A DNA stretch of 64,000 nt from Methanobrevibacter sp. (GTDB taxonomy: Archaea > Methanobacteriota > Methanobacteria > Methanobacteriales > Methanobacteriaceae), in NCBI RefSeq assembly GCF_017468685.1, contig NZ_JAFUHT010000077.1, positions 62,001-126,000 of the forward strand. Reading direction: 5' to 3'. The position numbers were made by a program, and so were the translations under genes. The notes beneath the pieces are model-generated. The model worked only from the letters and a program-made list of their open reading frames with translations, did not search any database and was not told where the DNA came from. Positions 21,280 through 30,519 of the stretch are shown one piece after another; within the stretch, counting starts at the first letter, position 1, and every line of letters begins with the position of its first letter.

Positions 21280-23634
21280 TTGAACAAAAAAATATTACTC
21301 ACTATGCTATTGGTATTGGTAATGATTTTTTCAGTCAGTGCAATTCAGGCTAGTGATGTTAATATAACAGATTCAGATGCATTATCCACAATTGATGATG
21401 AACCTGTTACAGTAGAAAGTTCATCAGATAATGAATTGGAATCTGTTAATTCAAATACTTTATCAACTAACAATGAAGACGCTTCCTTAATGGAAACTGA
21501 TAAGAATCAAACTGAAATAACATCACAAACAACAGATACCTACTATAAAGGATCTTACAGTGTCACATTAAAAGATTCAAATAGCAGCAATGTTTTAGCC
21601 AATAAGACTGTTAATTTAGTAATAAACAATGTAAAATATAATGTGAGCACTGACAGTAATGGTGTTGCAAGATTTGATTTATCATTAAATCCAGGTAAAT
21701 ACTCATTAACTGCTTATTTCGAGGGTGATGATTCATATAGTGCAAGTAATAATTTTACTGCAACTTTAAATGTATTATCCACCATTAAAGCAAATGATAT
21801 TACCAAATATTATAAGGGAAGCACACAATATAGTGCAACATTCCTTGACAGCAACGGAAATGTTTTAGCAAACAGATATGTGACAATTACTGTTAACGGA
21901 AAATCATATAATGTTAAAACTGACGGTAAAGGTGTAGCTAAGCTATCTGTTAACTTAAAGCCAGGTACTTACAAAGTCGTTTCAACTGATCCGATTACTG
22001 GATATAAGTTATCCACCACTTTTAAAATTTTATCAACAATCAGTGCAACTGCAACAACCAAAAAGGTTGCTGGAGATAGCAAAAAGTTCACTGCAACATT
22101 TTTAAAAAGTAATGGAAAAGCCTTAGCTAATAAATATATCAAAATTAAGCTTAAAGGTAAAACTTACAAGGTTAAAACAAACTCAAAAGGTAAAGCAACT
22201 TTATCTTTGAAAAGTCTTAAGAAAGGTACTTACAAGGTTATATGTTACAATAAAGATGGTTTGTCCAAAACTTTCAAGATAAAAGTTTACGGCAAAGTGG
22301 CTACTACACTTACAACCAAACTTTATACTTTCCTTAAAAGTGATAAGAAAACAATTAAAGTCACATTAAAAAATAGTTTAGGTTATGCTCCTACTTCAGG
22401 AAAAATCATTAAGATTAAAATTAATGGTAAAACCTACACTAAAAAAACAAATAGTAAAGGCGTAGTTTATCTTAAATTGCCATCTTTAAAGAAAGGTGTT
22501 TACACTGTTAAATATAAATTTGGAGGAGCTAGTCACTATAAGGCAAGCAGTGCCTCAAACAAGGTAATCATACTTTCTACTAAAAATGCAGCGTTTACAG
22601 TTAAAAGTACAACCTCTTTCGGTTACGGTGCAGGTACTCAGTTTAAAGTAGCTGTTACAGCCGGAGGTGTACCGTTAATTAAAAGAACAGTTACATTTGA
22701 TATTGATGGTAAAACTTATACAGGAACTACAAACAGCAAAGGAATTGCTTCAATACCTATTAATCTGAACTTGGGCAATTACACCATAAAATATTCCATT
22801 AAAAAGGAATCCAAAGTAAATGCAAAGTCCGGATCATCCAATATAAATGTCTTTGAAAGAAGTAATTCAATGCTTACATGGAAGAGCGGAACATCATTCA
22901 CAGACTCTTCACAGACTTTCAAAGTTCTATTAACTGATATTAATGGAAAAGCAATTTCAGGCCAAACTATTAAATTGACAATCAAGTCTAAAACATACAC
23001 TGCAACTACAGCATCAAATGGATATGCGACATTTAAAACTAGTGCACCAATAGGAACATACACTGTTTCAGTTAAATTTGGAGGTAGCAATAATTACATT
23101 TCTAGTTCAACATCCCAGTCAGTCAGCATTACATTTTCTAAATTAACCAAAGGTGTTAATGAGAAAAACACTATTTCAGATTTAAGTGCATATCTTAAAT
23201 CATCAAGTAACTGTCAGGTGGGAAATGCAAAAATCAAATCATTGGTAAACTCTTTGACAAGCGGTTTAACTAGTGATTTGGATAAGGCAAATGCGATATT
23301 CAATTATGTTAGAGACACATTGTCATATAGTTTCTATTATAATACCAAATTTGGTGCTACAGGTACATTAAGCGCTAAAAAAGGAAATTGTGTGGATCAT
23401 ACACACTTGTTAGTTGCTATGTTTAGAACTGCAAACCTTGAAGCAAGATATGTTCACGGTAAATGTACATTTACAAGTGGAAGTACATATGGTCATGTCT
23501 GGGCTCAGGTATTGATTGGCAATACATGGGTTTGTGCAGATGCAACAAGTTCTAAAAACTCTTTAGGAAAAATATCCAATTGGAATACAAAGACTTTTAC
23601 CCTTAAGGGCACATATGCAAGTCTTCCGTTCTAA
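21280..23634 (+). CDS. Surface protein with Ig-like repeats and a transglutaminase-like domain
   Basis: 784 residues, TTG start ten bases after GGAGG (21266-21270). A signal peptide ends near SAIQA, then an acidic Ser/Thr/Asn-rich stretch. About six Ig-like repeats of 80-95 residues follow, with recurring GKTYKVKTNSKG and LKKGTYKV strands. The last 150 residues are a transglutaminase-like cysteine protease fold with the triad Cys704 (GNCVDH), His739 (YGHVW) and Asp754 (ADATSS). It is close to the paralogue at 27916 but lacks that protein's pseudomurein-binding repeats. A role in wall-linked cleavage or cross-linking is inferred. Confidence 0.85.
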   Translation: MNKKILLTMLLVLVMIFSVSAIQASDVNITDSDALSTIDDEPVTVESSSDNELESVNSNTLSTNNEDASLMETDKNQTEITSQTTDTYYKGSYSVTLKDSNSSNVLANKTVNLVINNVKYNVSTDSNGVARFDLSLNPGKYSLTAYFEGDDSYSASNNFTATLNVLSTIKANDITKYYKGSTQYSATFLDSNGNVLANRYVTITVNGKSYNVKTDGKGVAKLSVNLKPGTYKVVSTDPITGYKLSTTFKILSTISATATTKKVAGDSKKFTATFLKSNGKALANKYIKIKLKGKTYKVKTNSKGKATLSLKSLKKGTYKVICYNKDGLSKTFKIKVYGKVATTLTTKLYTFLKSDKKTIKVTLKNSLGYAPTSGKIIKIKINGKTYTKKTNSKGVVYLKLPSLKKGVYTVKYKFGGASHYKASSASNKVIILSTKNAAFTVKSTTSFGYGAGTQFKVAVTAGGVPLIKRTVTFDIDGKTYTGTTNSKGIASIPINLNLGNYTIKYSIKKESKVNAKSGSSNINVFERSNSMLTWKSGTSFTDSSQTFKVLLTDINGKAISGQTIKLTIKSKTYTATTASNGYATFKTSAPIGTYTVSVKFGGSNNYISSSTSQSVSITFSKLTKGVNEKNTISDLSAYLKSSSNCQVGNAKIKSLVNSLTSGLTSDLDKANAIFNYVRDTLSYSFYYNTKFGATGTLSAKKGNCVDHTHLLVAMFRTANLEARYVHGKCTFTSGSTYGHVWAQVLIGNTWVCADATSSKNSLGKISNWNTKTFTLKGTYASLPF

Positions 23635-24156: not shown

Positions 24157-24330
24157 TTCAAAACCATTTCCTTTTAATTTTTTTATCCTCTATTTTTTTA
24201 AAGTAAAGTAAATATTAATAAGAACTCGTTATTTTACAAAATAAAATCAATATTGTTGTTAAAAAAACCAATACCTTATATATGTCCAGTTTAAAAGATA
24301 TTACTGCATTAAATATAAAGGTTGGTTAAA

Positions 24331-27300
24331 ATGACAAATTTTGATTATTTAAAAAACTTTAATGATGAATTATATGAAATCGGAAGAAAGTTGGAAGAAG
24401 ATGTGATTAACTCACCAAGGGCAGTAACCGCCGATGCAACACTTTTTCTTGAAAATCTCGTAAAAGACCTGTATAAGCTTTCAAATCATAAATTAAACAG
24501 GAATCTAAAATCTTTCTATAAAAAAATTGATAACCTGTACCGTTTGGGAGCAATCAGCTATATATACAAAAACAAACTCCAGGAAGCATATAATCTAAGA
24601 AACAAAATTCATTCCAAAAACCTAAATTCACGTGAAGAAAAAAACTTGGCTTTAGATTTGCATAAAAGATTATATTATCTGGCTAAAAAATATTTCAAAG
24701 ACAACTTTGAAAATGAAAAATACATAGACATTCCGGATTATAGAAAACCAAAGAACATAGAAATTTATTTTGACAATTGCATAATCTGCGGAAATTCAAA
24801 TAAAAAATCAATGTCAAACATGTGCAGATCATGCAATCAGAAAATAGAAAATGCAAACTTAATGCTGTCACTGCAGACAACATTTAATGATGAGGCTTTT
24901 ACAAGATATGATTTGGTTGAATTTGGAATACCCGAAAGCAGAGCGATTCTACTTTTAATGGATTTATCCAAATTTGGAGCAGTTACCAATAAGGGGGACT
25001 ATTACATACTTAATCCTGATAATTTCAATGATTATCTTTCTGAAATCAATCAGTATGTGGAAATTGGCGTTTTAGTTACAAAGTTTTACAAGGATGAAAT
25101 AAGTGCAAGTGAAATAAAACAAACTGAAGAGTATATTAAAGGATCTGAAAACAAATATCCATTTAGAGAATTTTTCAGACTGGTGAACAGCAAACTTGAA
25201 AAAACATTTGAAGAAAATCTTTTAAAACTAAATGATATATCCAAAAGCAAAAAAATATCATCAATGAGTGAATTCAATATCACTAACTGGTATTATCATG
25301 AAAAAGAAGCGTTTAAGGAAGGTAAATTAAATGAAGCTTTTATATTATATAATGAGATTTTAATTAATGAGTACTTTAAATTAAAAAGGAATCCTAATCT
25401 AGATGACAGGGATGTCCTAAATGAACTTAAAATTTCAAACGAAATGTTTTACTTCTGGCAAAATCAGTTTATCGGCGGAAAATTCTTTAAAAAAAGCAAA
25501 TCAATTAAACAGGACATAATCATTAAGGAGATTAAAAACCATAAGACACTCTCTGATGCTTTAAGATTGGCAAAAATAAGTAAAAATGACTTTGAAAAGA
25601 TGTATCTCATTTCAAAGCAAACAGATGATGACTTCTATAAGAATTTTGAAAAGGAATACACACAGAAAAGAAAAAAATTAGTTATAAAACACCTTAAGAA
25701 TCATAATCTCAATAAGGCCATAAAGTTAAGTAAAATCACTAAAACAGAATTTTTAAATTGGTACTATGACGGAGAAAAAACATTTTCAAATTTTTATGTT
25801 AAAACAACCGAACTGTTAATGGATAAGTATATCAGCTACCGTAAAAATAACTGGGACAAAAAAGAAATTCTTAAAAGGATTAATGTTTCAAAAGACATGT
25901 TTCAGTCATGGTCCAGACATGATGAATTCAAATTATTCCGTGATTTTGAAGATAAAAATAAAGAAATTACATCCTCGTTAGTTAAAAGGGGAAGAATAAT
26001 TAATGGAATAAAAAATGGTAAAGGAAAAGAGGAAGCCATTTTTTGTGCAAATCTCACTCCAAGGGAATTTATGGAAATTTATAACACCAGTAAAAAAGAA
26101 AAAACAGAATTTTATTTGAGATTTGACGTTGAATATGAAAAAAACAGGAAAAAATTATTCACACAGATTATCGCTGAGGAAGATTTTTACTATGCAATCC
26201 AAAAATGTGAAATTTCACAAAAGGAATTTAACAAATGGTATGTTAAGGACCAGGATAAATATCTCTCCACCAATAAATCAAGCGGATTTTATCAGACAGT
26301 AACTTATGAGCTGATGGATAAATATCTGCAAGCTCGAAAAGATGGAAAAAATAAACCGGATGCAGCAAAAAGCGTTGGTCTTTCAAACATTATAATCAAC
26401 AAATGGCTCAATCATCCGGAATATAATATTTTCAAATATTTTATAGATAAAAATCATCAGCTGACCATTGATTTAGTAGTTGAAGGGTTTAAAAATTATA
26501 AATCAAAGCTTGAGGTATATGAAATTTATGACATACCTATTAAAACAATAAATCAATTTATTGATGATGGAAAAAAAGGACTGGAAGAATATGAACAGAT
26601 ATTCGATTTATATGAAAATAAGGTCATTCCTCTTCATCTTGAAAAATTTCTTAAGAATTTTGAAAATAAGAATTTTTACAAGGCATTGAAACTTTCAAAA
26701 ATAAATAATGATGAATTGGATCATTATTATAATTTGGGAAAAAATGGAAACAATCAATTCAGTGATTTTCATTCAAGATTTTTAGAAATGAAAATAGAAA
26801 AATATGTAGAGAATATTCTTTCAAACAAAACAACAAAAATATCTCTAAAAAATTCTAATTTGACTAAAGAGGAATTTTATGAAAACAAAGCAGATATTGA
26901 TGATATGATTTTAAAAGAAAGAGTATATATCATTGCAGGAATGGTAACTCAACATAAATTTAATGGAGTCAGAATGGCAAAATCAGCTGGAATCAATGTT
27001 AATCAATTATATGATTGGTATATTGAAGGTAAAAACGGTAAAGAAAAATATAAAATTCTTTCAATGCTTTTTGAAGTAGGTTTTATCATGCCAAGATTAA
27101 TTGCATATAAAAAAGCTGAAAGTATTGGCATACCTTCAAAATGGTTAAACAAAAAACTTAAAAAGAATTTGGGAGTAACTGACTATAAGTTATGGCTTAA
27201 ACATGACATTTTAAATCGAAAAATGGATTATATTGATAAATCTGGAGAAAATATTGATGAAAACAAAATGAAAAGCGTCATTGAAAATTCCGATTTTTTC

Positions 27301-27429
27301 GATATCAACCTTAAAAATGCCACACCTGAAGAAATTGAAAATAACTTAAATAAACATTCCAATGATTTGGTAAAAATTTCAGTTGTGGACACACCCAAAT
27401 CTTTACGAAAACAGGCAACAGGAAAATAA
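24331..27429 (+). CDS. Large intracellular protein: DUF4145-like domain, zinc ribbon, tandem HTH-like repeats
   Basis: 1032 residues from ATG 24331; an in-frame TTG at 24322 is an alternative. There is no signal peptide, so it is cytoplasmic, and it is lysine- and asparagine-rich. Residues 1-125 resemble DUF4145 (ADATLFLENLVKDLY, then AYNLRNKIHSKN at 86-97). Cys150, Cys153, Cys165 and Cys168 form a zinc ribbon, followed by a winged-helix-like stretch (about 180-226). From about residue 300 to 985 come roughly eleven degenerate units of 50-55 residues with a core like KALKLSKI-EF-WY-GK, each reading as a short helix-turn-helix. Examples are LNKAIKLSKITKTEFLNWYY and NFYKALKLSKINNDELDHYY. It probably binds nucleic acid or acts as a scaffold. 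I do not recognise the whole architecture. Confidence 0.7.
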   Translation: MTNFDYLKNFNDELYEIGRKLEEDVINSPRAVTADATLFLENLVKDLYKLSNHKLNRNLKSFYKKIDNLYRLGAISYIYKNKLQEAYNLRNKIHSKNLNSREEKNLALDLHKRLYYLAKKYFKDNFENEKYIDIPDYRKPKNIEIYFDNCIICGNSNKKSMSNMCRSCNQKIENANLMLSLQTTFNDEAFTRYDLVEFGIPESRAILLLMDLSKFGAVTNKGDYYILNPDNFNDYLSEINQYVEIGVLVTKFYKDEISASEIKQTEEYIKGSENKYPFREFFRLVNSKLEKTFEENLLKLNDISKSKKISSMSEFNITNWYYHEKEAFKEGKLNEAFILYNEILINEYFKLKRNPNLDDRDVLNELKISNEMFYFWQNQFIGGKFFKKSKSIKQDIIIKEIKNHKTLSDALRLAKISKNDFEKMYLISKQTDDDFYKNFEKEYTQKRKKLVIKHLKNHNLNKAIKLSKITKTEFLNWYYDGEKTFSNFYVKTTELLMDKYISYRKNNWDKKEILKRINVSKDMFQSWSRHDEFKLFRDFEDKNKEITSSLVKRGRIINGIKNGKGKEEAIFCANLTPREFMEIYNTSKKEKTEFYLRFDVEYEKNRKKLFTQIIAEEDFYYAIQKCEISQKEFNKWYVKDQDKYLSTNKSSGFYQTVTYELMDKYLQARKDGKNKPDAAKSVGLSNIIINKWLNHPEYNIFKYFIDKNHQLTIDLVVEGFKNYKSKLEVYEIYDIPIKTINQFIDDGKKGLEEYEQIFDLYENKVIPLHLEKFLKNFENKNFYKALKLSKINNDELDHYYNLGKNGNNQFSDFHSRFLEMKIEKYVENILSNKTTKISLKNSNLTKEEFYENKADIDDMILKERVYIIAGMVTQHKFNGVRMAKSAGINVNQLYDWYIEGKNGKEKYKILSMLFEVGFIMPRLIAYKKAESIGIPSKWLNKKLKKNLGVTDYKLWLKHDILNRKMDYIDKSGENIDENKMKSVIENSDFFDINLKNATPEEIENNLNKHSNDLVKISVVDTPKSLRKQATGK

Positions 27430-27458
27430 TTTTTGTCATGTTAAATATAATTAACATT

Positions 27459-27490
27459 CTAAGGTTTAAAACCTTAGAAAAAAATTATTT
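27459..27490 (+). terminator. Hairpin after the large repeat protein
   Basis: CTAAGGTT (27459-27466) pairs perfectly with AACCTTAG (27470-27477) across a 3-base loop, 30 bases after the stop. Confidence 0.5.
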
Positions 27491-27915: not shown

Positions 27916-30519
27916 TTGAACAAAAAAATATTACTCACTTTTGTAATAATACTGGCTGTTTCGTTATCAGTCGGTACAATTTATGCTAGTGATGTAAATG
28001 TTACAGATTCATATACATCCAGTTCATTAGATAATCAATCTATTTCGAATGCTGACGATTCATCTCAATTGCAGTCAAATGAATATGCTGCTGTTGCTGA
28101 CTCATCAAATGATGTTTTGCAGTCTGAAGATTCAAGTACTTTATCAACTAACACAGCTGACAGTGATGTTTTGAAAAGTGATGGTAATTCATCATCAAAT
28201 ATTGATGTATCAAAAACCATTACTTCAAAAGATGTTACTAAATATTATAAAGGAAGTGCCAAATACACAGCTACCTTTTTAGATAATAACGGATCAGCAT
28301 TGGCAAATACTGATGTTAAAATTGTATTGAATGGTCAAACATTCACTAAAAAGACTGATGGTAATGGTCTAGCTTCCTTGGATATTAATCTTAAACCTGG
28401 AACTTATAAGGTTGTTGCAACCAATCCTGTTACTGGTTTTACTTTAACCAATACTGTTAAAGTTCTATCCACCATTACTTCTAAAGACATTAGCAAAGTT
28501 TATCTCGACGGTAGAAAATTCTATGCTACTTTTCTTAAAAGCAATGGTAAAGCATTAGCCAAAAAGGTTGTTAAGTTTAAGATTAATGGAAAAACATACA
28601 AAGTAAAAACTAATAGTAAAGGAGTAGCTAGTTTATCACTAAAAACTCTCAAAAAAGGTACTTATAAAATCATTTGTTATAATAAGGATGGTTTAACAAA
28701 AACCAACAAGGTAAAAGTCGTAAAATCAGTTAAAACTTCATTAACTGCTAGTGATTATACTTTCCTTAAAAAGAATAGTAAAAAAATAAAAGTTAAATTA
28801 CTTAATGCATACGGTTATGCACCGGCTAAAGGTAAAGTAATTAAGTTTAAAGTAAACGGCAAAACCTATAAAGCTAAAACTAATAAAAACGGTATTGCTA
28901 CACTTAAATTGCCTTCCCTTAAAGTTGGAGTATACACTGTCAAATACAGCTTTGCTAAATCTGGATATTACAAAGCATCCAGTACAAAAAGTAAATTAAC
29001 AATTATTCCTACTAAAAATCCTACTTTTACAGTAAAAAGTACCACCACATTTGGACATGGGGCACATACACCATTTAAAGTTGCCTTAACATCAGGTAGC
29101 GTTCCTTTAGCAAATAAAAAGGTTTCATTTGTTGTAAATGGAAATACTTATACTAAGACAACAAACAGTAAAGGTGTTGTATCACTGCCGATTGATTTGG
29201 AAATTGGAAAATATACTATAACATACTATAATAAGGCAGATTCTAAAATTAATAAAAAAACAAAATCTACTGTAATTAATGTTATTGAAAGGGGAAATAC
29301 TTCAGTCACTTGGAAAAGTTCAACTACATTCCCTCAAGGTACCCAATCAACCAAATTATTAGTTGTTGATTCCAATAATAAGCCAATATCTGGTGGAACT
29401 GTTAAACTTACCGTAAATTCCCAAACTTACACTGCTAAAACATCTTCAAGTGGTTATGCAACCATTAGTGCAAGTTTCCCATATGGAAATTATAGCGTTT
29501 CTTACTCATTTGATGGGGATAATCTAAATGCACCAAGTTATGGCAGTACCCAGTTAAGTGTTTCACAAGTGCACACAATGTCTATTAAAAATATTGTGAA
29601 TGCTGCAAGCAACTTAAAATCCTATTATGAATCAAATAAAAAGTTACCTGGCAGCGTTACTGCAGGGGGAATTTCATTTACAGTACCTGAATTTTTATAT
29701 CTGATGAGTGAAGCGATAAATAATTTGGGCAACTCTAAAACTAGTGATGTTTCTATTATATATGGAGTTTCCGAGCCTAGTTCACCTACCGGTGATGCAA
29801 TTAATTCTAAAGATTTGACAAAGGCTAATTTCATAACTGTAGCGAAAAATGTGATGGATTATATTAGTACTAATAAACAAGCACCTAACTATGCTTCATC
29901 TTCAGTGGGTAAAATTATCTATTCAGAGTTAGTTGACTCTTCTGCAAGAATTTTAGACTTTTATAGAACAAACAATCGTTTACCAAGTTATGTTACAATT
30001 AGTTATGCTACTAGTAGCTCTTCTCAATCCGGTACAGGTTTAAATGAGAAAAACACAATTACTGATTTATCTCAATACCTTAAAGCTACCACACATTGTG
30101 AAGTGGATAATGCTGCTATCGTGAAAATTGTTAACTCTGTTACTAAAGGTTTAACCAGTACTTCAGCTAAAGCTAAAGCCATATTTAATTATGTAAGAGA
30201 TACTTTATCATATAGTTTCTATTATAATACCAAATATGGTGCTGTTGGAGCATTGAATGCTAAATCCGGAAATTGTGTAGATCATTCACATTTACTTGTC
30301 GCTATGTTTAGAACAGCTGATATTCCTGCTAGGTATGTGCAAGGTACCTGTAAGTTTACAAGTGGTAGCACATATGGACATGTATGGGTTCAAGTGTTAA
30401 TTGATGGTAAATGGACAATTGCTGATGCAACAAGTTCAAAAAATTCTCTTGGAAGCGTAGCTAATTGGAATACTAAATCCTTTACTCTTAAAGGAATTTA
30501 TTCAAGTCTATCATTCTAA
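27916..30519 (+). CDS. Surface protein with pseudomurein-binding repeats and a transglutaminase-like peptidase domain
   Basis: 867 residues, TTG start after GGAGG. Layout: signal peptide (cut near TIYA), a Ser/Asp-rich stretch, and about five Ig-like repeats (GKTYKVKTNSKG type). Two repeats of pseudomurein-binding type follow at about 555-610 (IVNAASNLKSYYESNKKLPG) and 630-695 (FITVAKNVMDYISTNKQAPN; RILDFYRTNNRLPSYV). The C-terminal transglutaminase-like domain has the triad Cys787, His822 and Asp837. Pseudomurein endoisopeptidases PeiW/PeiP join the same two module types, so this is a candidate wall hydrolase or autolysin. The order of modules is as in PeiW; activity is inferred. Confidence 0.8.
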   Translation: MNKKILLTFVIILAVSLSVGTIYASDVNVTDSYTSSSLDNQSISNADDSSQLQSNEYAAVADSSNDVLQSEDSSTLSTNTADSDVLKSDGNSSSNIDVSKTITSKDVTKYYKGSAKYTATFLDNNGSALANTDVKIVLNGQTFTKKTDGNGLASLDINLKPGTYKVVATNPVTGFTLTNTVKVLSTITSKDISKVYLDGRKFYATFLKSNGKALAKKVVKFKINGKTYKVKTNSKGVASLSLKTLKKGTYKIICYNKDGLTKTNKVKVVKSVKTSLTASDYTFLKKNSKKIKVKLLNAYGYAPAKGKVIKFKVNGKTYKAKTNKNGIATLKLPSLKVGVYTVKYSFAKSGYYKASSTKSKLTIIPTKNPTFTVKSTTTFGHGAHTPFKVALTSGSVPLANKKVSFVVNGNTYTKTTNSKGVVSLPIDLEIGKYTITYYNKADSKINKKTKSTVINVIERGNTSVTWKSSTTFPQGTQSTKLLVVDSNNKPISGGTVKLTVNSQTYTAKTSSSGYATISASFPYGNYSVSYSFDGDNLNAPSYGSTQLSVSQVHTMSIKNIVNAASNLKSYYESNKKLPGSVTAGGISFTVPEFLYLMSEAINNLGNSKTSDVSIIYGVSEPSSPTGDAINSKDLTKANFITVAKNVMDYISTNKQAPNYASSSVGKIIYSELVDSSARILDFYRTNNRLPSYVTISYATSSSSQSGTGLNEKNTITDLSQYLKATTHCEVDNAAIVKIVNSVTKGLTSTSAKAKAIFNYVRDTLSYSFYYNTKYGAVGALNAKSGNCVDHSHLLVAMFRTADIPARYVQGTCKFTSGSTYGHVWVQVLIDGKWTIADATSSKNSLGSVANWNTKSFTLKGIYSSLSF

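Follow-up and report, generated by a model that had tools for sequence, protein, structure and literature searches.

P0001, a 1032-residue protein of Methanobrevibacter, consists of a HEPN-superfamily head, a zinc ribbon, a winged helix-turn-helix (HTH) domain and a long chain of about eleven degenerate HTH units. Of this anatomy we are highly confident. The reading of its function that we favor, with slightly less than even confidence, is that a multivalent HTH chain docks this HEPN protein on nucleic acid, where it probably serves as an anti-invader co-effector. HEPN fusions are a familiar theme in microbial conflict; our literature search turned up no account of a HEPN domain borne on a long run of tandem terminase-type HTHs.

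The Gene and Its Family

The window (the whole 64,000-nucleotide stretch of DNA that was analyzed) belongs to a 2.28-Mb Methanobrevibacter assembly, genome G000. The P0001 reading frame begins with an ATG at 24331 and ends with a stop codon at 27427-27429, and its start agrees with the M[TS]NFDFLK start conserved among orthologs. A preliminary description of this DNA had given the same coordinates and length; these are correct, and the open reading frame is real.

24331-27429, + strand: gene for the HEPN/zinc-ribbon/HTH-array protein P0001, 1032 aa; at least 14 other Methanobrevibacter genomes carry long-form orthologs
24276-24283, + strand: candidate archaeal TATA box TTATATAT, about 47 nt 5' of the ATG, read off the sequence
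27253-27426, + strand: unstructured, fast-evolving tail, residues 975-1032 (pLDDT <50; ortholog entropy; dN/dS)
27457-27479, unstranded: 10-bp palindrome 3' of the gene, terminator-like

The tail has the highest ortholog entropy of the protein (2.16 bits) and a dN/dS of 0.66 in the closest ortholog pair. Two paralogous surface proteins, with repeats and, judged by eye, a transglutaminase-like C terminus, are encoded on either side, at 21280-23634 and 27916-30519 of the window. Their promoters, described earlier as near-identical, are homologous, with a score far above shuffles, yet just 168 of 228 alignment columns (74%) match.

No Pfam, NCBIfam, PHROG or PADLOC family matched P0001 at cut-off (the PADLOC defense models gave 0 families), and we therefore built a family from its relatives. 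These occur in 31 of the 67 Methanobrevibacter genomes searched. They take a long form, about 1030 aa in length and 42-63% identical, and a short paralogous form of about 780-900 aa, one copy of which lies in the same genome as P0001, on contig C30. Searches of the wider family and phylum gave matches confined to Methanobacteriaceae. We found no homolog in viral contigs (two scans), phage records or plasmid records, and thus no sign of a phage-borne gene.

A HEPN-Superfamily Head, a Zinc Ribbon and a Winged HTH

The N-terminal part of P0001 carries three domains.

24331-24723, + strand: head, residues 1-131, DUF4145-clade HEPN-superfamily domain (family profiles; it also heads DndF- and BrxL-containing proteins)
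24451-24453, + strand: acidic partner residue E41 (acidic in 25 of 25 members)
24598-24612, + strand: R90-N-K-I-H94, HEPN-type R..H motif, Rx3H (25-member alignment)
24778-24834, + strand: zinc ribbon CxxC-x11-CxxC, C150, C153, C165 and C168 (all four Cys invariant, 25/25)
24889-25014, + strand: winged HTH, residues ~187-228 (AlphaFold order H-H-E-E, pLDDT ~70-77; Foldseek)

Judged by sequence, the head appears to be a DUF4145/HEPN-superfamily domain. P0001 itself scores 12.4 bits against DUF4145 (PF13643; E=0.17), under the Pfam gathering score of 23.1 bits, which two orthologs exceed (G044 at 24.5 and G059 at 23.3 bits); the best match among the 25 members has an E value of 5.5e-4. According to Anantharaman et al. 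(2013, PMC3710099), DUF4145 belongs to the HEPN superfamily of predicted RNases, whose heads act on RNA, and the HEPN motif comprises an Rx4-6H that ends helix 3, with the Arg followed by a polar residue, and an acidic residue located in helix 2. In the P0001 family, R90 and H94 are invariant in all 25 relatives, Asn follows the Arg in 21, and position 41, within predicted helix 34-51, is Glu in 23 and Asp in 2. Together with the two orthologs above the cut-off, these residues bear out the DUF4145-like head of the preliminary description. The likeness to DUF4145-type HEPN domains extends to length and helix order; five helices are predicted for the P0001 head, but at a pLDDT below 50 (4-row alignment).

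The spacing of the motif sets the family apart: 24 of the 25 members, P0001 included, have Rx3H rather than Rx4-6H, and only one (L031) has the canonical Rx4H. PMC3710099 gives Rx4-6H as mostly (80%) conserved in DUF4145, so that a domain can belong without strictly having it. Catalysis by the head is doubtful because of the Rx3H spacing, and we lean somewhat against its being an active RNase.

The zinc ribbon, also claimed earlier, is upheld by its invariant cysteines; 12 of the 25 members match DZR_2 at E<1. The winged HTH, which the preliminary description lacked, gives weak Foldseek matches to IclR/MarR-type winged HTHs. PMC3710099 already lists DUF4145 fused to a zinc ribbon and to HTH; the passages of it used here do not mention a fusion to a long HTH array.

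An HMM of the 25 heads also finds N-terminal DUF4145 domains in other proteins, fused to DndF (L181, L190) and to DpnI_C plus BrxL (L195), at E ~1e-10 in a small database. DndF N termini bear HEPN, zinc-ribbon or winged-HTH domains and are proposed to be suicidal co-effectors (PMC10853773). DndF proteins differ in having an NTPase body and Dnd partners; P0001 is without partners and has an HTH array instead. Separately, the head occurs by itself, in tandem copies that retain the Arg but not the His, at L127:9032-10220 and L128:6493-7430; in two genomes, stand-alone copies adjoin a restriction-modification locus with C5 methylase and MutH-type genes.

An Array of Terminase-Type HTH Units

For the repeats we used an HMM trained only on distant HTH-repeat proteins, with every P0001 family member left out. 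It picks out 12 units in P0001 at regular spacing (whole-protein E=1.2e-35), compared with a maximum of 2 in any of 1000 residue shuffles. Matches lie at residues 265, 301, 364 (weak), 395, 450, 497, 556, 622, 662, 713, 771, 823 and 883, with a spacing of ~50-58 aa from residue 395 on. We count ten units across residues 395-908, one at 293-329, and two or three that are further decayed; the earlier figure of about eleven degenerate repeats was right, about eleven of the HMM units being solid.

25207-25317, + strand: HTH unit 1, residues 293-329 (repeat profile)
25405-25467, + strand: decayed HTH unit, residues 359-379 (marginal, 0.7 and 0.63 in two profile searches)
25513-25656, + strand: HTH unit, residues 395-442 (repeat HMM iE 1.5e-7; AlphaFold)
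25678-25797, + strand: HTH unit, residues 450-489 (iE 6.5e-9; AlphaFold)
25822-25956, + strand: HTH unit, residues 498-542 (iE 7e-6; AlphaFold)
25996-26127, + strand: HTH unit, residues 556-599 (iE 1e-5; AlphaFold)
26179-26259, + strand: HTH unit, residues 617-643 (iE 0.003; other profile 4e-6; AlphaFold)
26317-26445, + strand: HTH unit, residues 663-705 (iE 3e-7; AlphaFold; modeled alone as residues 645-707)
26470-26604, + strand: HTH unit, residues 714-758 (iE 5e-8)
26641-26769, + strand: HTH unit, residues 771-813 (iE 1.7e-10)
26797-26883, + strand: HTH unit, residues 823-851 (iE 5e-4)
26977-27054, + strand: HTH unit, residues 883-908 (iE 5e-8)

Structure prediction agrees with the profile. 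With the 4-row alignment, AlphaFold gives a recurring long helix plus a short HTH pair, with pLDDT mostly 70-92 for residues 391-740 and below 50 for residues 1-144 and most of 747-856; a single unit modeled from 24 aligned repeats reaches a pLDDT of 83. The unit is tri-helical with a helix-turn-helix pair and a recognizable profile, and the HTH-like nature ascribed to the repeats, which a prediction without HTH units would have contradicted, stands.

The best named relative of the unit is the HTH of phage small terminases. The repeat consensus matches PHROG 4102 at 2e-5, a natural five-unit relative (L129) does so at 1.6e-8, and the repeat HMM in turn detects a 136-aa terminase-type protein in L126 (PHROG 4102, 2.2e-26); the best HTH_28 match among the 25 family members is 1.1e-5. 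Small terminases also set several HTHs in an array, a ring of SF6/SPP1 type whose HTHs bind DNA weakly and with little sequence specificity (PMC4737164). The likeness is confined to the HTH unit: a small terminase has one HTH and an oligomerization domain, whereas the P0001 units are covalently tandem and HEPN-headed. We found no such oligomerization domain in P0001 and no large-terminase or packaging gene nearby.

Foldseek matches of the single unit are mostly to HTH proteins that bind DNA, such as KorB, Fis, Pax, a sigma factor and the phage protein phBC6A51, each at E>2; the whole chain has no significant match in the PDB (best E 0.19). PDB 8vd6, which gives a strong summed match to the repeat profile, was not counted as homology: the common part is a 24-residue turn motif only, and 8vd6 appears to be a designed repeat protein, the one citing paper found being on protein design. 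Matches of the P0001 sequence to ovomucoid in the PDB were put down to chance, and those to GH-E/HNH, Mvb12, ATP-synthase epsilon and a PHROG HNH family lie under any threshold and were dismissed.

In the genome of P0001 the repeat profile finds only P0001, its short paralog and a coiled-coil-like protein of 239 aa that has two HTH repeats and is encoded ~2 kb upstream of the short paralog on contig C30 (L085:5493-6212).

How the Array Might Bind

Among orthologs the head is the most conserved part (mean entropy 0.71 bits, against 1.23 bits for the repeats), and within the unit only core positions are conserved: F3, I7, A16, W30, Y31, G34 and F44. A fixed base-reading code is unlikely on this sequence evidence, because the positions that the recognition helix exposes rank with the most variable in the unit (1.6-2.0 bits) and helix 3 has a net charge of about zero, which is weak for DNA binding.

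The pattern fits many weak contacts as well as it fits a protein scaffold. In the latter case the units would have lost their DNA contacts, leaving an alpha-helical solenoid that holds partners such as the DUF1232 protein or a helicase. The conserved core with drifting exposed positions and the neutral helix 3 speak for such a solenoid, as do the DUF1232 neighbor gene kept by the short paralogs and the designed repeat protein that, sharing the turn motif, is the top summed PDB sequence match. Against this, the single-unit Foldseek matches, though weak, are mostly to DNA-binding proteins, the family keeps its zinc ribbon and winged HTH, and its median net charge (+0.005) exceeds that of other ORFs (-0.027). 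We consider a pure scaffold distinctly unlikely. That the array contacts DNA appears about evenly balanced.

Alternatively, by analogy with PPR- or FASTK-type solenoids, the array might be an RNA-binding helical repeat that delivers RNA to the HEPN head to be cut. The action of HEPN heads on RNA and the all-helical repeat would suit this. The units, however, match DNA-binding HTH and terminase families rather than RNA-binding repeats, and no conserved exposed position could read bases, which makes an RNA-presenting array very improbable.

A Stable Chromosomal Locus

In most genomes the long form occupies one broad, conserved chromosomal neighborhood, and its orthologs rank by identity much as those of a nearby gene do (Spearman 0.77, n=14). 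From this locus conservation and ranking, the sequence evidence is that P0001 is inherited vertically, with loss, and is not part of a mobile defense island. In sister species G056 the gene is missing and its neighbors remain. The earlier suggestion of a recombination spot conflicts with the shared neighborhood, with divergence that tracks the neighboring gene and with this locus: G056 retains the surface genes on either side, together with the small gene that lies between them, and we reject promoter recombination because it would have taken out more than is seen missing there.

The closest ortholog pair has a dN/dS of 0.11 overall and 0.10 in the repeats, indicating strong purifying selection, and repeat positions are constant among long-form orthologs. 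Vertical inheritance combined with strong purifying selection is unusual for defense genes. Vertical inheritance in a stable locus, the low dN/dS and the constant repeat positions would suit a chromosomal regulator or nucleoid-type protein, whose array wraps or bridges host DNA and whose head is a non-catalytic HEPN domain for dimerization or RNA binding, with no role in defense; the non-canonical Rx3H and the lack of defense neighbors at P0001 point the same way. Such a regulator would, however, be patchily distributed, present in under half of the genus genomes and cleanly missing at its locus in a sister species; the family's relatives and head homologs are tied to defense genes; and a purely structural head would not need its invariant Arg and His. 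On balance we think a host regulator unlikely, if a good deal less so than RNA presentation. For the HEPN protein docked on nucleic acid, our confidence is held down mainly because P0001 is inherited vertically with loss, outside a mobile defense island.

Defense Genes beside the Wider Family

No recognized defense gene lies within about 8 kb of P0001. The long form as a whole, P0001 included, has no DUF1232, BrxD/BrxHI or PLD-helicase neighbors, and genome G000 has neither a PF10923 (BrxD) match nor a locus that joins BrxD/SngB to BrxHI/SngC. Links to defense belong to the wider family only. They consist of the head fusions to DndF and BrxL and of BrxD/BrxHI, PLD-helicase/NUDIX and DUF1232 neighbors.

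A divergent DUF1232 gene lies directly upstream at 13 of 19 short-form loci. A genus-wide search found DUF1232 genes of this type at 20 places in 17 genomes, one of them a fragment with a stop. The intact genes adjoin the P0001 family or giant repeat proteins of the c23 type, or lie in two related restriction islands that encode an mREase_IV helicase, NUDIX, PbeA and PbeC. Two P0001-family members likewise adjoin a pair of PLD-helicase (mREase_IV) and NUDIX genes. The c23-type giants are distant relatives that have the zinc ribbon, winged HTH and HTH repeats in common with the P0001 family. Unlike P0001, they adjoin genes like those of the type 2 BREX BrxD/BrxHI dyad and of Shango SngB/SngC, in all six of the genus genomes that encode BrxD; among Methanobacteriaceae, BrxD is found in 14 of 139 genomes.

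A Working Model

These data are consistent with a HEPN-superfamily protein borne on a multivalent nucleic-acid-binding chain. The head would be a DUF4145-clade HEPN domain, of a class predicted to cut RNA, and the zinc ribbon and winged HTH would form the first DNA-contact module. The eleven or so terminase-small-subunit-type units would build a long helical array making many weak DNA contacts with no fixed sequence, a mode resembling the mechanism proposed for the small-terminase ring. Contact with foreign, bent or unusual DNA, or with a partner, might then position or switch on the HEPN head, and the outcome would be an abortive-infection-like or co-effector response. We infer the coupling of array binding to the head. 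An anti-invader role, which would include action against mobile elements, is a tentative assignment, and P0001 itself may be the phage-defense sensor proposed earlier.

Binding through many weak contacts would make the array a natural covalent model for DNA selection by the terminase ring. A bolder version, which we rate as improbable, is that P0001 is a single-chain counterpart of that ring, its HTHs taking hold of an invading virus at the packaging region or at bent DNA and so arming the HEPN RNase head. P0001 would then be a defense protein that exploits the virus's own packaging-recognition principle, and the solitary form of a wider HTH-array and DUF1232 family that in other settings partners BrxD/BrxHI, PLD-helicase or Dnd-type effectors.

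Candidate Cassettes around the Giant Repeat Proteins

To our knowledge, few defense mechanisms have been studied in gut and rumen methanogens, and the DUF1232 and BrxD/BrxHI links point to undescribed defense cassettes in these organisms. At L099-L105, L120 and L125, which are homologous loci in other genomes, three genes stand together: one that is PRK00809-like, one for a BrxD/SngB-like ATPase and one for a BrxHI/SngC-like helicase. A giant repeat protein of the c23 type and, in many cases, a DUF1232 gene flank this cassette, which may represent an undescribed defense system derived from BREX-2/Shango. The gene c24 matches PRK00809 and, on this match, is possibly EVE. A short distance downstream of a BrxD/BrxHI pair, at L126:7654-8064, lies a terminase-small-subunit-like gene (PHROG 4102). 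Finally, a repeated module of ~75 aa, 'GFAWV..W.Y...I..LY..V....WGV.DL.KA', matches no Pfam family at cut-off and looks AP2-like by eye; it occurs at L099:4636-9597, L102:7606-10602 and L169:6890-8704, both within c23 giants and beside DUF1232 genes.
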